The notes under the pieces are model-generated. The model was not told the origin of the DNA and did no database searches. It was given only the letters and a program-made list of their open reading frames with translations. A stretch of 64,000 nucleotides of DNA from Bacillota bacterium (lineage in GTDB: Bacteria > Bacillota > Sulfobacillia > JACIYH01), in the NCBI GenBank assembly GCA_030019365.1, contig JASEFA010000009.1, positions 1 to 64,000 on the forward strand, in the 5' to 3' direction. Each line of letters begins with the position of its first letter. The stretch's first letter is position 1. Below are positions 512 through 6,847 of this stretch, piece by piece. The position numbers and the translations under genes are program-made.

Positions 512-577
512 GTGGCCACGTCCAGGAGACGGCGGCGCACCCGCGCGGGATCAGTGGAAGGTGGCCACGTCCAGGAG
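512..577. repeat. 17-bp direct repeat copying the end of the permease gene
   Basis: The 17-mer gtggccacgtccaggag occurs at 512-528 and 561-577. The second copy is the last coding part of the permease gene that ends at 551; the first lies 49 bp further downstream. A gene end has therefore been duplicated in tandem, as is also seen at 44868-44932. Confidence 0.7.
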
Positions 578-1507
578 GCCACGCTGCCTGGCCACCCTCT
601 CACAACCCACCAGGACGGCCAGGCACACCAGCACCAGCAGCACGGCCGTGCCCAGCAGTATTGCCAGGATCATGCCATCTGACGCCCAGGCCAGGGAAGC
701 CGCCATGCCGTGGCCCAGGCAGGCCCGCCGCAGGCCCTCGACCCACCAGGTGAGCGGAAGCACACGGGAGACAGGCTGCACCCATGCGGGCAGGATGTCT
801 ATGGGATAGACCACGCCCGCCAGGACGTAGAACAGTCCCGCCACCGCCTCCGAGTACGCCCCACCGTGCCGGGCGCTGATCAGGTATACGCCGGCCAGGG
901 CCATCCCCATGGCCGCGCACGCCACCACCCCCAGCAGCAGCACGGGCAGGAAATACGGCCAGTTGACCCGGGCCAGGTGCAGGGGCAGCCCCAGGAACAG
1001 GCGGCCGAAGACGAGCAGGATCACCACGGAGAGCGCGCCGATGGCGGCGCCCGCCGCCGCGCGGCCCGTGATGTACCACTGCAGGCGTCCGGGCAGGATG
1101 TAGATGTAGCGGAAGGTGCGGAAGAACTCCCGGTCCTCCAGGATACACCAGCTCACCCCCATCATGACCTGCCCCACGAAGGCGAAGAAGGCGTTGCCCA
1201 GGTACACGTGGGCGAACATGGGCGATGAAAGGGCGTCCCGGGAGATCACCAGGTACATGAAGACCAGGATCAGCCCCTGTGCCACCGGCCGGAAGATGGA
1301 ATACACTGCGAACAGGAAGGGGTCGGTCCAGTTGGAGCCGATCTGCCAGCCCAGCCAGGCCCCCGTGCGCAGCACGTGCCACCCTCCCGCCTGGCGCAGC
1401 ACGTGCCACCCTCCCGCCCCGCGCAGCAGGTGGCTGTCCGACGCGCGCCGGCCGTCCCGGCTGCCCGCCCCGGAGGAGGGGGAGCTGCCGGTCGTCTTCA
1501 CTGCCAT
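551..1507 (-). CDS. ABC-2 type transporter permease (second membrane subunit)
   Basis: About 318 residues with six predicted membrane spans typical of the ABC-2 exporter permease superfamily, after a polar N-terminal stretch of about 45 residues. It is translationally coupled to the upstream permease: the ATG start lies inside the end of that gene, giving a 10-bp overlap (ATGGCAGTGA). With the other permease and the DrrA-like ATPase it should form a heterodimeric exporter of an unknown substrate such as a drug, lipid or polysaccharide. A longer frame reaching back to 1756 exists but would lie wholly inside the upstream gene, so the overlapping ATG is preferred. The N-terminus contains a short repeat (GGWHVLR twice). 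Confidence 0.85.
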   Translation of the reverse strand: MAVKTTGSSPSSGAGSRDGRRASDSHLLRGAGGWHVLRQAGGWHVLRTGAWLGWQIGSNWTDPFLFAVYSIFRPVAQGLILVFMYLVISRDALSSPMFAHVYLGNAFFAFVGQVMMGVSWCILEDREFFRTFRYIYILPGRLQWYITGRAAAGAAIGALSVVILLVFGRLFLGLPLHLARVNWPYFLPVLLLGVVACAAMGMALAGVYLISARHGGAYSEAVAGLFYVLAGVVYPIDILPAWVQPVSRVLPLTWWVEGLRRACLGHGMAASLAWASDGMILAILLGTAVLLVLVCLAVLVGCERVARQRGLLDVATFH

Positions 1508-2433
1508 CGCATGGTCAGCCTCCCTTCTCGCTTGGCGATCCGCTCCATGTGGGCCAGGGCCAGCGCGGCACCCACCAGGTACAGCACGGCCAGCCCGGCG
1601 TTGATGGCCACCTCCACCCCCGCCGGCAGGAGCCCCATGCCGGCATCGGCAAAGGCCAGCTGGCGGAGGGCGTCCAGCCCCAGGGTCAGGGGGACGACGC
1701 CCGCCAATGCCGCCGCCCAGAAGCCCAGGGCCCTGACCGGGAAGTAGAACCCGCACAGGAGGAATATGGGTTCCTGGAGGAGGTTGGACAGGTGCCAGGC
1801 CTCCCGCCCGTGCAGCAGGAAGAGAGAGGCAAACACCATCCCAAGTCCGTACAGGGCAATGAGGGTAACGAGGAACCCCACCACCAGGAGGCCCAAGGCA
1901 TCCGTACGGTACTTTACCCCGAAGGCGAGGCTGCCCAGTATCAGGGCCCCGGCCGCCCGCACCGTGGTCTGCACCATGCCTCCGAAGGCCATGCCCCCCA
2001 GAATGGCCATCCGGGAGATGGGAGCGACGAAGAACAGCTCCAGTTGCCCGCTCTGCTTGTCAAAGTAGAAGGTCGACCCCATCCCCCACAGCACGTGCAG
2101 CCAGTAGGCCGAGATGGCACCCCCCAGGATGACGTAGCCGACGAACACCTCGGGAGCCTTTATGGAGCGGTAGATGTACACGTAGGCGACCACACCCAGT
2201 ACGGGCAGGACGGTGTCGAAGAACAACCAGGAGAGCTCCCGGTTCGTCCCTACCACGCGGACGTAGGCACGTCCCCACAGTGCCCGTAGGTTGTCAACCA
2301 GGTACGAGCCCGCCGAGTGCCCTCCCCCGCGGCGCATGGAGTGTGCTGCGGTCCCGCCCGGCGCCGCCCCGGTGGGGTACGCCTCGGCACTCTCGGGAAT
2401 CCCGCGGGGAGACGATTCAGGCATGGTTGTCAC
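1498..2433 (-). CDS. ABC-2 type transporter permease (first membrane subunit)
   Basis: 311 residues with a hydrophilic N-terminus of about 55 residues and then about six membrane segments in the ABC-2 pattern. The GTG start at 2433 has a GGAGG site 9 bases upstream; an in-frame ATG at 2424 is less well placed. The gene overlaps the ATPase gene by 17 bp and the next permease by 10 bp, so all three are probably translated as one coupled operon. Substrate cannot be inferred; the DrrA-type ATPase suggests export rather than import. Confidence 0.87.
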   Translation of the reverse strand: MTTMPESSPRGIPESAEAYPTGAAPGGTAAHSMRRGGGHSAGSYLVDNLRALWGRAYVRVVGTNRELSWLFFDTVLPVLGVVAYVYIYRSIKAPEVFVGYVILGGAISAYWLHVLWGMGSTFYFDKQSGQLELFFVAPISRMAILGGMAFGGMVQTTVRAAGALILGSLAFGVKYRTDALGLLVVGFLVTLIALYGLGMVFASLFLLHGREAWHLSNLLQEPIFLLCGFYFPVRALGFWAAALAGVVPLTLGLDALRQLAFADAGMGLLPAGVEVAINAGLAVLYLVGAALALAHMERIAKREGRLTMRWQ

Positions 2434-3523
2434 CTGCGCCTTCCTCCAGCCCCCTGCCCACCAGGGACACGAAGACGTCCTCCAGGGTGGGTTCCTCCTT
2501 GCGGAAGGCCTTCACGCGGATGCCCGCCTCATCCATGCGTCCCATCACGGGGACGATGGCCGCCTCCTCGTGCAGGATCAGGCTCAGCTCGCACGCGCCG
2601 CTGCCGGGCACCACCCGCCGGCTCGAGGACTTCACCCCCGGCCAGCCTCCCACGGTGCCGGCCAAGCGCTCGTCCGCCGCCGCCCCGCCGTCGACCTCCA
2701 GGCGGATCACCACCTCCCGGCCCAGCGACCGCTTGAGGGCTGAAGGCGCACCGCAGGCCAGGATGCGCCCCCGGTCGATGATGGCCACCCGGTCGCACAG
2801 CTCGTCGGCCTCGGCCATGTAGTGCGTGGTCAGGAGCACGGTGCGGCCGGCCCGCTCGCCGATCCACTCCCGGATGAAGCCGCGGATGGCGCGGGCGGCA
2901 TTCACGTCAAGGCCCACCGTGGGTTCGTCCAGGAATATCACGGCCGGGTCGGAGATGAAACCGCGGGCGAAGTTCATCTTCTGCTTCTGGCCGGTGGACA
3001 GCCGGTTGATGCGGGAGTTGGCCTTCTCCCCCAGGCCCAGCCTCTCGATGAGACCGTCGACGCGCCGCATGGCCTCGCGCGAGGGGATGCCGTAGAACTG
3101 GGCGAACATCCACAGGTTCTCCCGCACGGTGAGGATGTCGTATCCCACCGATTCCCCGCCGGAAACCATGTTGATGATGCGCTTCACCGCCATGGGATCC
3201 TTCACCACGTCGTGGCCCCCCACCAGGGCCCGGCCCGACGTGGGGTAAAGGAGCGTGGCCAGGATCTTGATGAGGGTGGTCTTGCCTGCCCCGTTGGGGC
3301 CCAGCAGGCCGAACAGCTCCCCTTCCCGCACCTCCATGTCCACCCCACCCAGGGCGGTTACCTGCCGCACCACCCGGTCCCGCCGCCGCCGCAGCCAGCC
3401 CCCGCGCCCACCGCCCACGCCGGCATCTGGCTGCTCCGGGCCGGCGGCGGACCGCCCCCTGTTCTTCTTCTCACCACGGACGGAGAAGGTACGGGTGAGC
3501 TTCTCCACCTCTATCGCCAGCAT
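2417..3523 (-). CDS. DrrA-like ABC transporter ATP-binding protein
   Basis: 368 residues. The nucleotide-binding domain carries Walker A GPNGAGKT (about residue 77), signature LSTGQKQK, Walker B VIFLDEPTVGLD and the H-loop TTHYM. A C-terminal extension of about 100 residues, of the kind found in DrrA/CcmA-type exporters, follows. An unusual insertion of about 40 residues rich in Arg and Gly sits between the first beta strand and the rest of the N-terminal sheet (residues 17-55). The ATG at 3523 has GGGAGG 6 bases upstream. First gene of the exporter operon, behind a leader with promoter, short leader peptide and terminator (3539-3757), so expression is probably controlled by attenuation. Confidence 0.92.
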   Translation of the reverse strand: MLAIEVEKLTRTFSVRGEKKNRGRSAAGPEQPDAGVGGGRGGWLRRRRDRVVRQVTALGGVDMEVREGELFGLLGPNGAGKTTLIKILATLLYPTSGRALVGGHDVVKDPMAVKRIINMVSGGESVGYDILTVRENLWMFAQFYGIPSREAMRRVDGLIERLGLGEKANSRINRLSTGQKQKMNFARGFISDPAVIFLDEPTVGLDVNAARAIRGFIREWIGERAGRTVLLTTHYMAEADELCDRVAIIDRGRILACGAPSALKRSLGREVVIRLEVDGGAAADERLAGTVGGWPGVKSSSRRVVPGSGACELSLILHEEAAIVPVMGRMDEAGIRVKAFRKEEPTLEDVFVSLVGRGLEEGAGDNHA

Positions 3524-3538
3524 CTGAATCCTCCCATC

Positions 3539-3566
3539 AAAAGAGAGCCGGGTTGCCCCGGCTCTC
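3539..3566 (-). terminator. Intrinsic terminator in the exporter leader
   Basis: On the minus strand GAGAGCCGGG (3566-3557) pairs with CCCGGCTCTC (3552-3543) in a perfect 10-bp stem with a 4-base loop, followed at once by TTTT (3542-3539). It lies after the promoter and before the ATPase ribosome site, so it can only end transcription before the exporter genes. Its 5' arm (GAGCCGGG, 3564-3557) can alternatively pair with CCTGGCTC (3602-3595) over 8 bp with one G-U, which would be an antiterminator. Confidence 0.85.
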
Positions 3567-3593
3567 CCGCAGAAAAACGAAGACCCACCGGCT

Positions 3594-3624
3594 GGAGCCA
3601 GGGCAAGAAAGCCCTTGCCGCTCC
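3594..3624 (-). promoter_or_regulatory. Upstream leader hairpin that masks the antiterminator segment
   Basis: GGAG/CTCC outer pairs and a GGGC/GCCC inner stem form an imperfect hairpin that includes the CCTGGCTC segment (3602-3595) able to pair with the 5' arm of the terminator. The three elements (this hairpin, antiterminator, terminator) are mutually exclusive, as in known attenuators. Pairing was judged by eye. Confidence 0.55.
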
Positions 3625-3663
3625 GGCCAGGGGCCCGGACAGCCTCACCTGGACCGGGCGGTT

Positions 3664-3699
3664 TCAGGTTGCGCCGCTTACCTCACGGATGCGCACCAC
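3664..3699 (-). CDS. Putative leader peptide of the ABC exporter attenuator (11 aa)
   Basis: A GGAGGAGG ribosome site (3711-3704) lies 4 bases before a tandem GTG GTG start, giving the peptide MVRIREVSGAT or one residue less. An in-frame ATG at 3714 would give 16 residues but would place the ribosome site inside the coding sequence. The peptide starts only about 20 bases after the predicted transcription start and ends about 40 bases before the leader hairpin. Short, well-initiated leader frames followed by alternative hairpins are typical of ribosome-mediated attenuation of antibiotic-resistance ABC genes. No homologue of the peptide is recognised. Confidence 0.5.
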   Translation of the reverse strand: MVRIREVSGAT

Positions 3700-3727
3700 C
3701 GCACCTCCTCCCATCTCGACCCACGCG

Positions 3728-3757
3728 AGAATACCACACGCCTGCCACGCATGTCAA
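3728..3757 (-). promoter_or_regulatory. Sigma-A-type promoter of the ABC exporter operon
   Basis: TTGACA (3757-3752), an 18-base spacer and TATTCT (3733-3728). The predicted start near 3721 gives a leader of about 200 bases carrying the leader peptide and terminator. The pilO end at 3823 lies just upstream, so this promoter separates the exporter operon from the pilus operon. Confidence 0.75.
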
Positions 3758-3822: not shown

Positions 3823-4452
3823 TCAGCGGACGGGGCCAAACGGGTTCTCCCGTCCTTCCGATGGCGGTGGCAGCGGGGGAACCTGCAGCCTTACGGTCGG
3901 CCGAGGGGCAGTGGGACCCGTGACCGGAACAACCGGATTCAACTGGAAACCGATCTCCAGGTCAAACCGCACTGCCGCTCCCGCGGGCCGCAGCGACGCC
4001 AGGCTGATGCTGGCGGTATGCGGGAACCACCGCAGGGCCTGCAGGAACTCGGAAACCGGGCCGTATCCTCCTGTCCCACTTACGCGGACCGTGAACAGGC
4101 CCTTGTCGCCAGCGCCGAAGGTCAGCTGCTCCCAGGACAATCCCCAGATGTCCTGAGCAGCTTGCAGGAGCATGAGCACTTCCGAAGGACCAAAGGGAGC
4201 GCTCACATCCCGCCCCTCACGGGTAACTGCTTCACGCAACTCCTGCAGTCGATCGTCGAGAGCGGCCTCCTGGCCCTCCAGGTCACGCAGGCGGGATACC
4301 AGCTGCTCACCCTCGGTCACTTCCACCTTCAGCGCCCACAGGTGGCTCAGGGCGGGTAAGAGCATAGCGGCGGTCAAACCGCCGAGGACGAGGAGGCTCG
4401 CTGCCGCCGCCATGAGTAGCTTTTCTCTCTGCGTGAGCCCCCTCAGCTTCAT
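3823..4452 (-). CDS. pilO: Type IV pilus inner-membrane alignment protein, PilO-like
   Basis: 209 residues: a short cytoplasmic start, one membrane span (about 13-33), a coiled-coil stretch (about 38-75) and a compact domain of the PilO/GspM kind, with a Pro-rich tail. In type IV pilus machines PilO pairs with PilN to link the cytoplasmic PilM ring to the periplasm-side or wall-side parts. The ATG at 4452 overlaps the pilN stop (ATGA). Last gene of the pilus operon. The assignment rests on position after pilM-pilN and on architecture, since PilO sequences diverge strongly. Confidence 0.8.
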   Translation of the reverse strand: MKLRGLTQREKLLMAAAASLLVLGGLTAAMLLPALSHLWALKVEVTEGEQLVSRLRDLEGQEAALDDRLQELREAVTREGRDVSAPFGPSEVLMLLQAAQDIWGLSWEQLTFGAGDKGLFTVRVSGTGGYGPVSEFLQALRWFPHTASISLASLRPAGAAVRFDLEIGFQLNPVVPVTGPTAPRPTVRLQVPPLPPPSEGRENPFGPVR

Positions 4453-4976
4453 CTGCTCCCCTTCCAGGCGGCGGTGACGGTAAACACCAGAAGACCTTTC
4501 TGCTCGCCCCGCGTCACCTGGGCCAGAGCAACCCGGTCGAGGTAGGGGCACCCTTCGAGAGCCCGTACCAGGGCGGCAGTTGCCACCAGGTCAGCAGCCT
4601 GACCCGACAGATGCAGCGTCGTACCGTCCCAGCGCAACTCCCGCAATACGACCTGCGGAGGGGTGACACTCGCCAGAAACCAGAGGAGCTCGCCCCAGGG
4701 AGGAATCACGGCTCCGGTCGGAGTCCTCGCCTGGCCCAGCAACTGCTCCAGGCGGGCGACTTCCGCCTTCTTCTCGGCCACCCGGTCCAGCCGTGCCCTT
4801 TCGGCCTCCACCCGAGCCAATCTACCTTCCCATGCTTCCACCTGGTGGATCAATTCCATCCGTGCCCCTACCAGGCCGGCTATCAGCACGCCGGCAACCA
4901 TGGCCAGGACCAACCGCACCCGGCGCCTGCGGGTGCGCTCTTTGATCTCTCGCGGCAGCAGGTCAATGGTGGTCAC
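4449..4976 (-). CDS. pilN: Type IV pilus assembly protein PilN
   Basis: 175 residues beginning with the PilN hallmark INLLP-like motif (here IDLLPREI, residues 4-11), which binds the groove of PilM. A basic stretch, one membrane span (about 22-40), a coiled coil (about 45-80) and a ferredoxin-like domain follow. The GTG start overlaps the pilM stop as GTGA, and the stop overlaps the pilO start, so the three are coupled. The role is to connect cytoplasmic PilM to PilO. Confidence 0.88.
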   Translation of the reverse strand: MTTIDLLPREIKERTRRRRVRLVLAMVAGVLIAGLVGARMELIHQVEAWEGRLARVEAERARLDRVAEKKAEVARLEQLLGQARTPTGAVIPPWGELLWFLASVTPPQVVLRELRWDGTTLHLSGQAADLVATAALVRALEGCPYLDRVALAQVTRGEQKGLLVFTVTAAWKGSR

Positions 4977-6820
4977 CTCGTGTTCCCCCGCAATGACAAC
5001 CCCAGGGCGAGGAAGTGCTCCGGCCCGAAGGCCAGTGGGTCACAGGCCCATCTGACCCGGTCCTCGGGAAGTCGGGCGAGCCCGATCCACCGGGGACCGA
5101 CGGGAAGCCGACCCCACCGGGCCAGGGCCTGCTCCAACCACGAGGCCAGCACCTCGCAGAAACCTTGCAGCCTGGCCCCTCCCCCCGTCAGGAGAATTCG
5201 GGGCGCGACACCACGCTCACTCTGGTCCAGGTAGTACTCCACCGTCTTGCTGATCTCACCGGCCAGACGGTCCGCCAAAGGCCTCAGTTCGGAGATCTCC
5301 AGTCCGCGTTCCCTCTTGTAGGCCTCGGCAGCATCCTCCCCCACGCCGAGCTCCCGCTCGAGGACCTCCGTGAAGTGTTGTCCCCCCACCGGCAGTACCC
5401 GCGCGAGCAAGGGAGCGCCCTGCCGGCCGGCGAAAACCAGCGTCCCCATGGCCCCCGCATGCACACCTATGGTCAATACCGGCTGGGGATCCGGGCCCCG
5501 GTCCATGCTCCCCGCCAGCTCGAGCGCCCGCGCCAGTGCCACGCTATCGGTTTCCAGGGCAAGGGGTACCAGACCTCCCATTTCCACGACCTGTGCCAGT
5601 CCCCGCACCGTCCCAGAATGAGCAGCCACAAGCAATACCTTCATCTGACGCTCGCTCCGGCCGAGGACGGTAAAGTCCATCTCGGCCTCACTCCAGGGGA
5701 GAGGCAGGTAATGCTCCCCTTGCAGCCTGAACATGGCTTCCAACTCACGTCGCCCCATGGGGGGCAACTCTACCTGCCTGGTGATGACCCTCTGTCCGTC
5801 AACGGCGCTCACACAATGGCGACCCCGGAAGATGTTTCTCGCCTCCCTCAGGAGAGAGGCAACCCGGGCGAGATCCTGGATCTGTCCTCCCACAACCGCC
5901 CCCTCCGGCACCGGCCAGGTCCCGTAGCGCCAGATGGTGAGCATACCTCCGGACATTTCGGCCTGCACCACTTTCAGCCACCGGGAACCAATGTCGACGC
6001 CCAGGATTCCCCTTGCCCGGCCTGTCCCGGGCGCGAGGCCGGAAGACACATCCCGCCCGGCTGCAATACTCTCCGTGGCCTCTGCGGGTTCCTCCAGCTC
6101 CGCGGCTACCGCAGCCTCCTCGACCTCCCCGACCTCCGCCACCTCACAGATCATCTCGTCGCCGACTCTGCCCTCGACGGATCCCGCAGTTCCTGCGCTC
6201 TCGTCGTCGACTCCGGCCTCCACGGGTCCCGCGGCCCCCGCGCTCTCGCCGGGGACGCCGCCCTCCACCGACCCTGCTGCCACCGTGCCGGCGTCGTCGA
6301 CGCGGCTCCCCGCGGCAACGGCCTCCCGGCCGGCATCGGGGGGTACCACCGCCTGTGCCCCGCCAGGCGGCGATGTCGCCTCAGGCGAGCCTCCCACGGC
6401 CGGGGGCGTCTCTGCGGGAGCAGCACCCACCGGGAGAGTCCTCCCGGACAAATCCTCATCTGCCGCGGGCGTGACAATGGGGGGGACGGCGTCGTCAACT
6501 GGTGCAGTGCAGGGCGAACGTCCGTGAGCGCGCCATCCGGGGCGGGAAAAGAGAGAGACAGCAGCACGCAGGGGAGATCGTCCGCCATCCCGCGGGGCGT
6601 TGCGCCCTATGGTCCCGTCGATGGACAGCCGGGCGGGGAGAGGCGCGTATCGGGTCGGAGAAAGCGCAGGGAGCGGCCAGGCCTTACCGCTGGGCCGCTT
6701 CACCGCCGGCCCTGGCGCGAGCGGCAGAGGTCCCATCAAGCCCCGTACCTCAGGTTCCGTGATGCCATCAGCGACAACGGGGTGACGCGTTTTCCCCGGT
6801 CGCTCTCTCTTTACGGACAT
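4973..6820 (-). CDS. pilM: PilM, type IV pilus actin-like ATPase with a long N-terminal extension
   Basis: 615 residues from the ATG at 6820 (an in-frame GTG at 6841 is also possible). The conserved PilM/FtsA-like fold begins near residue 272 with ILGVDIGS and ends with the LTGGGARLQG phosphate-binding motif; this part has the normal length of about 340 residues. The first 270 residues are extra: low-complexity, rich in Pro, Ala, Gly and Glu, and include three imperfect 15-residue repeats (AGSVEGGVPGES-like, DNA about 6146-6277). Such an extension is not part of the usual family and is probably a disordered linker. PilM forms the cytoplasmic ring that binds PilN and the PilB/PilT motors. Confidence 0.87.
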   Translation of the reverse strand: MSVKRERPGKTRHPVVADGITEPEVRGLMGPLPLAPGPAVKRPSGKAWPLPALSPTRYAPLPARLSIDGTIGRNAPRDGGRSPLRAAVSLFSRPGWRAHGRSPCTAPVDDAVPPIVTPAADEDLSGRTLPVGAAPAETPPAVGGSPEATSPPGGAQAVVPPDAGREAVAAGSRVDDAGTVAAGSVEGGVPGESAGAAGPVEAGVDDESAGTAGSVEGRVGDEMICEVAEVGEVEEAAVAAELEEPAEATESIAAGRDVSSGLAPGTGRARGILGVDIGSRWLKVVQAEMSGGMLTIWRYGTWPVPEGAVVGGQIQDLARVASLLREARNIFRGRHCVSAVDGQRVITRQVELPPMGRRELEAMFRLQGEHYLPLPWSEAEMDFTVLGRSERQMKVLLVAAHSGTVRGLAQVVEMGGLVPLALETDSVALARALELAGSMDRGPDPQPVLTIGVHAGAMGTLVFAGRQGAPLLARVLPVGGQHFTEVLERELGVGEDAAEAYKRERGLEISELRPLADRLAGEISKTVEYYLDQSERGVAPRILLTGGGARLQGFCEVLASWLEQALARWGRLPVGPRWIGLARLPEDRVRWACDPLAFGPEHFLALGLSLRGNTR

Positions 6821-6847
6821 GGCCCTCTCCCGCCCGGGCACACCCGG

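Follow-up and report, generated by a model that had tools for sequence, protein, structure and literature searches.

A predicted ribosome-mediated transcription attenuator with two interlocked terminators upstream of an ABC-2-type exporter operon in an uncultivated Bacillota lineage

Which signal decides whether RNA polymerase proceeds into a three-gene ABC exporter operon that is preceded by a promoter, a reading frame of only 11 codons and two terminator-like hairpins? This question is raised by a locus in the window, i.e., the whole stretch of 64,000 nucleotides analyzed, which corresponds to contig C9 of a 2.9-Mb genome. All parts of the putative attenuator lie on the minus strand (as do all features given below), with a type IV pilus-like operon (PilM, GspM-like and GspF-like genes, ending at 3823) upstream and the ABC operon downstream. 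The latter encodes a DrrA-type exporter ATPase (2417..3523; PF00005, PF13732; TIGR01188 at 3e-86, yet with 289 bits under the cut-off of 312) and two ABC-2 permeases assigned to PF01061, permease 1 (1498..2433) and permease 2 (551..1459, with the 5' boundary approximate due to the choice of start codon). Scores of the permeases against TIGR01247 reach 48 and 34 bits at a cut-off of 223, and a full match to the DrrAB-type family models (drrA, drrB) was not obtained. As judged from Pfam domains, the operon encodes an ABC-2 exporter outside the named DrrAB subfamily, putatively exporting drugs in accordance with its drug-exporter type. Close orthologs of permease 1 (50–63% identity; L038–L115) are found in Methanomassiliicoccales and Thermoplasmata archaea as well as in Bipolaricaulota, Chloroflexota and Zixibacteria, and this spread suggests wide transfer of the exporter. 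In the upstream operon, the PilM frame (4973–6841) shows about 278 low-complexity Pro/Ala/Gly/Glu-rich residues ahead of the PilM domain, representing either the result of a mis-set start or a disordered extension.

The sequence-only reading of this DNA had suggested the logic of ribosome-mediated attenuation, starting with a strong promoter and a well-initiated frame of 11 codons, and both of these elements are present. The promoter scan identified a sigma-70-type site (TTGACA-18-TATTCT, with TG ahead of the -10 box; 3728..3757) as the sole promoter-like sequence in 1.5 kb, where 0.1 would be expected, and transcription probably starts near 3721, about 22 nt 5' of the leader GTG. The frame (3664..3699; GTG GTG CGC ATC CGT GAG GTA AGC GGC GCA ACC TGA) follows the Shine-Dalgarno (SD) sequence GGGAGGAGG and is predicted to be translated into the peptide MVRIREVSGAT. 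Promoter and SD-led frame are both conserved in a genome of the same genus, designated G001 in the following. In the order promoter, SD-led short frame and strong U-tailed hairpin, these elements occur once in the 64-kb window when considering both strands (128 kb of strand-sequence).

Two intrinsic terminators can be deduced in the region separating the leader frame from the first gene. Hairpin T1 (3572..3636, the hairpin itself spanning about 3636–3583) is formed by segment B (GGGCCCCTGGCCGGAGC, 3620..3636) as 5' arm and a 3' arm containing segment C (TTGCCCTGGCTC, 3595..3606), and is itself terminator-like since its own U-tract TTCGTTTTTC follows at 3581–3572. In the sequence-only reading, T1 had been correctly recognized as an upstream hairpin, while this U-tract and the terminator-like nature were missed. 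Hairpin T2 (3543..3566) consists of a perfect 10-bp stem, GAGAGCCGGG/CCCGGCTCTC, between segments D (GAGCCGGGGCAA, 3553..3564, providing 5' arm and loop) and E, followed by the modest tail TTTTGAT, and corresponds to the perfect terminator that had been claimed before the first gene. Segment A (CCGCCCGGTCCAGG, 3648..3661) starts 2 nt past the leader stop and is the antiterminator partner of B, with the pairing extending to GCGG at 3621–3618. The five segments make up an interlocked switch, likewise missed in the sequence-only reading, in which the ON pairings are A:B (13 bp) and C:D (12 bp), and the OFF pairings are B:C (T1) and D:E (T2). In the folding calculations, the A:B helix comprises 4+4+5 bp with two single-base bulges and, for stalled ribosomes, has a minimum energy of about -30 kcal/mol. 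Because C, in the 3' arm of T1, captures D, A:B and C:D occur together and exclude both T1 and T2. A pairing with the 5' arm of the terminator had already been noted and exists as C:D, albeit over 12 and not 8 bp. Counting against the model, segment E is able to pair with the exporter SD in the ON fold. T2 was also considered as the main terminator, and this candidate was demoted as its tail is weak in G001 (TTCTTG), whereas the T1 tail is identical there. A search against Rfam with the window and 11 ortholog loci did not return a known leader family.

The competition for segment B is predicted to depend on the position of the ribosome. With the RNA folded up to the T1 loop, where the polymerase then sits and which was taken as the decision point, B is held upstream at a probability of 0.88 with the ribosomal A site at codons 1–10, 0.67 at codon 11 and only 0.24 at the stop codon. 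The same calculation for G001 gives values of 0.88, 0.68 and 0.42, respectively. In silico, antiterminator and terminator are thus mutually exclusive and ribosome-dependent (0.88 versus 0.24), with a sensitivity to the leading edge assumed for the ribosome, as holding of B amounts to 0.76 at +9 and to 0.24 from +12 on. The C:D pairing appears once the RNA extends to the T2 loop. Dinucleotide-shuffled upstream regions rarely hold B so strongly (p 0.02 by energy and 0.007 by pairing probability), and the overall folding energy is mildly unusual (z -1.86). Evidence exceeding chance lies in the conservation and the specific A:B pairing. In the global minimum-energy structure, both terminators are present in every ribosome state, and at equilibrium OFF is more stable than ON by about 7–9 kcal/mol; hence, the switch must be kinetic, with ON presumably winning by forming first.

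Of two same-genus genomes compared, G001 possesses both operon and leader and G002 neither of them, and when searching the DNA of 154 genomes of the class for the leader, the same-genus copy was the only real match. Bearing in mind that this comparison involves just two closely similar sequences, identity between window and G001 amounts to 24/30 in the promoter, 92% over A to E, 98% over A to B and 100% over D to E. The leader frame of G001, MFKIREEGGSI, has the same length and stop position, with DNA only 58% identical and 7 of 12 codons differing by replacement, and has the [R/K]IRE core and Gly at position 9 in common with the window peptide. Geometry and RNA are consequently kept more than the peptide, considering the 92% identity of A to E versus 58% in the frame. 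The conservation of frame and pairing asked for along with the sequence-only reading is seen in the one same-genus genome having the operon; the exact peptide is not kept beyond [R/K]-I-R-E and Gly9.

Outside the genus, six further orthologous operons (G003, G021, G026, G045, G057 and G074) from four other families of the class each show a promoter, a leader frame and a terminator-like hairpin ahead of the gene, in leaders lacking DNA similarity to the window leader. The corresponding peptides are MIRLRIRSAIRLASACISAGGPWDIR (G003), MIPAAVVFRESHGFVCPRNMSLK (G021), MGRLNGRIELAIG...GSREPGSLPLRVISRP (G026), MIRSFVRLRSTKAALLAIGRDSHARLTGSREPGSLLPPVSF (G045), MILSFLRFRSIGAALSGAGRDNCARLSGSREPGSLLPPVMTDR (G057) and MAVRLIRDSVGGITVGFFASSKRVALGRRSS (G074). 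The terminator is clear in all but G003, where the hairpin is weaker and the U-tail poor; the SD of G021 is imperfect, and the extended -10 motif TGGTA recurs ahead of most orthologous leaders. Folding indicates for all six that an early ribosome leaves the 5' arm of the terminator paired with upstream RNA, and that this pairing is lost or reduced once the ribosome is near the frame end. Compared with shuffled sequences, upstream pairing is significant when combining nine tests (p 0.0016) and marginally so by Fisher's method with one leader per family (p 0.02); the test fails in ZC4RG06, and G003, G021 and G074 are individually not significant. The promoter of G005 is followed by a terminator but by no clear frame, and in G010 and G087 the ATPase gene sits downstream of another gene and has no leader. 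Nothing resembling the leader stood out ahead of the archaeal, Chloroflexota and Bipolaricaulota orthologs, which were screened for SD-led short frames only. The proposed attenuation logic is supported in that the exclusive pairings respond in silico to the ribosome position and the same order of elements is found again ahead of orthologous ABC operons in several related genomes.

Some of these leaders show additional features. Those of G026, G045 and G057 (L145, L146 and L147) have the peptide stretch GSREPGSL in common. Its codons look like the 3' arm of the terminator and, by prediction, can pair with the 5' arm, so that RNA pairing may be the reason for keeping this peptide motif. When the SREPGS codons of the three leaders were used as a degenerate search pattern, no further leader ahead of other genes was revealed. 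An R-E-x-x-G peptide motif common to all leaders was also considered and dropped, as it is absent in G003 and G074. In ZC4RG06 (L100) and G493 (L141), which belong to different lineages, the leader peptides upstream of the ABC ATPase end alike, with SGFAHPEPTSRFL and SGHARPEETVSHL, respectively, directly before the stop. Near the end of the former locus (L100:4763–4829), the DUF3800-VIII RNA family scores 39.8 bits at a cut-off of 40.2.

From these data, the locus probably represents a ribosome-mediated transcription attenuator of the three-gene ABC-2-type exporter operon. Alternatively, an attenuator with equally clear terminator and antiterminator might be switched by a metabolite or protein binding to the leader RNA, with translation of the frame playing no role, and the far higher conservation of the RNA 3' of the frame (92%) than of the frame itself (58%) would agree with this. 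Such control is nevertheless improbable, as neither an Rfam match nor an aptamer-like domain beyond A to E is found, SD, frame length and the location of A directly after the stop are all kept, and the orthologous operons are preceded by frames which differ in sequence but are similar in geometry. Slightly less probable still is that the hairpins merely serve as constitutive terminator or insulator of the pilus-like operon, whose co-directional genes do end upstream of them at 3823, and that the short frame is incidental. Against this speaks the strong promoter that separates the hairpins from the pil genes, and it is at this promoter that conservation begins, the similarity between window and G001 stopping at the -35 box (local score 22 versus 21 for shuffles). 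Moreover, the G001 leader precedes the same ABC operon with a different gene upstream, far from the pilO homologue (contigs C33 and C19), and as far as can be deduced from the two genomes the leader travels with the ABC operon and not with its neighbours. Equally improbable is an attenuator sensing starvation for amino acids instead of drugs, for although Arg and Ile codons occupy positions 3–5, where stalling would allow the antiterminator to form, no codon occurs in a run, the genes under control encode an exporter rather than a biosynthetic pathway, and the amino acids vary between related leaders.

In the ribosome-mediated attenuator thus preferred, quick reading of the 11-codon leader would bring the ribosome to the stop codon, where it covers A, so that B would pair with C to form terminator T1. 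A polymerase getting past T1 would then meet T2 (D:E), and the operon would be mostly off. Segment A would stay free when the ribosome is halted at one of codons 1–10; a macrolide-like drug acting on R-I-R might, for instance, arrest it with the P site occupied by Ile4 and the A site by Arg5. A:B could then form before C is made, C would capture D, and with C:D formed both terminators would be avoided and the exporter genes transcribed. The model also predicts readthrough from an untranslated leader.

As for the inducer, the term antibiotic-sensing in the sequence-only reading is plausible, the hint in the sequence being limited to the early Arg-X-Arg. Such a +X+ motif close to the peptide start, as in the window leader, is known to cause ribosome arrest mostly by ketolides and also by macrolides, the P site being occupied by the X codon while addition of the second basic residue fails (PMC8298421). 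An early Arg/Lys-X-Arg/Lys is present in 5 of the 10 leader peptides (permutation p 0.003), i.e., half of them are without it, and in 3/7 when counted by lineage (p 0.04). In the window (R3-I4-R5), G001 (K3-I4-R5) and G003, it takes the form [R/K]-[I/L]-R at codons 3–5, and in G045 and G057 that of R-[L/F]-R at codons 7–9. A macrolide-like inducer is possible on these grounds, and only tentatively proposed.

Taken together, an uncultivated Bacillota lineage may, with some reservation, be seen as retaining ribosome-sensing attenuation of one ABC exporter family, with a nearly free turnover of both leader peptide and RNA structure; in the genus of the window, the attenuator would take the form of an interlocked tandem-terminator switch, in which one early arrest releases two terminators and which is ON by default without translation. 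An uncharacterized exporter family, ranging from Bacillota to Methanomassiliicoccales archaea, would thereby gain a testable function, namely, export induced by ribosome-targeting compounds. In addition, the natural series of leaders from several families, having different peptides and the same logic, could reveal which parts of antibiotic-sensing leaders are constrained.

While this type of switch is known, the present example and its several relatives appear not to have been described, according to a limited search of the open literature. Closest by logic is bmrB-bmrCD of Bacillus subtilis, where a leader frame with terminator and antiterminator likewise precedes an ABC exporter, in that case for multiple drugs, and where fast translation results in termination and slowed translation in readthrough (PMC4191407). 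The bmrB frame, however, has the size of 54 codons (162 nt) with the terminator inside and bears no recognizable similarity to the present leader, in which 11 codons are followed by two interlocked hairpins outside the frame. Furthermore, readthrough falls when translation of bmrB is abolished (PMC4191407), whereas the naked RNA is here predicted to read through. A very short +X+ leader peptide ahead of efflux genes is shared with mef(E)/mel of Streptococcus pneumoniae, which employs a different pump and a different antiterminator; the peptides have only the +X+ pattern in common. This motif is used by its leader MTASMRLR and by the M..MRLR leader of erm(K)/erm(D), and transcription attenuation, as predicted here, governs mef(E)/mel as well as erm(K) (PMC4335068). 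Leaders of the erm(K)/erm(D) type resemble the present one by an early [R/K]-[I/L]-R and undergo macrolide arrest at Arg-Leu-Arg (PMC8298421, PMC4335068), but control a methylase gene, while the leader studied here precedes an exporter and is a candidate for such arrest. In a survey covering premature terminators broadly, predicted attenuators before ABC transporter genes already form a recognized large class with 205 candidates (PMC2965389). Hence, given the logic shared with bmrB-bmrCD and the size of this class, the locus belongs to an already known kind of switch, for which its tandem terminator arrangement is unusually tidy.
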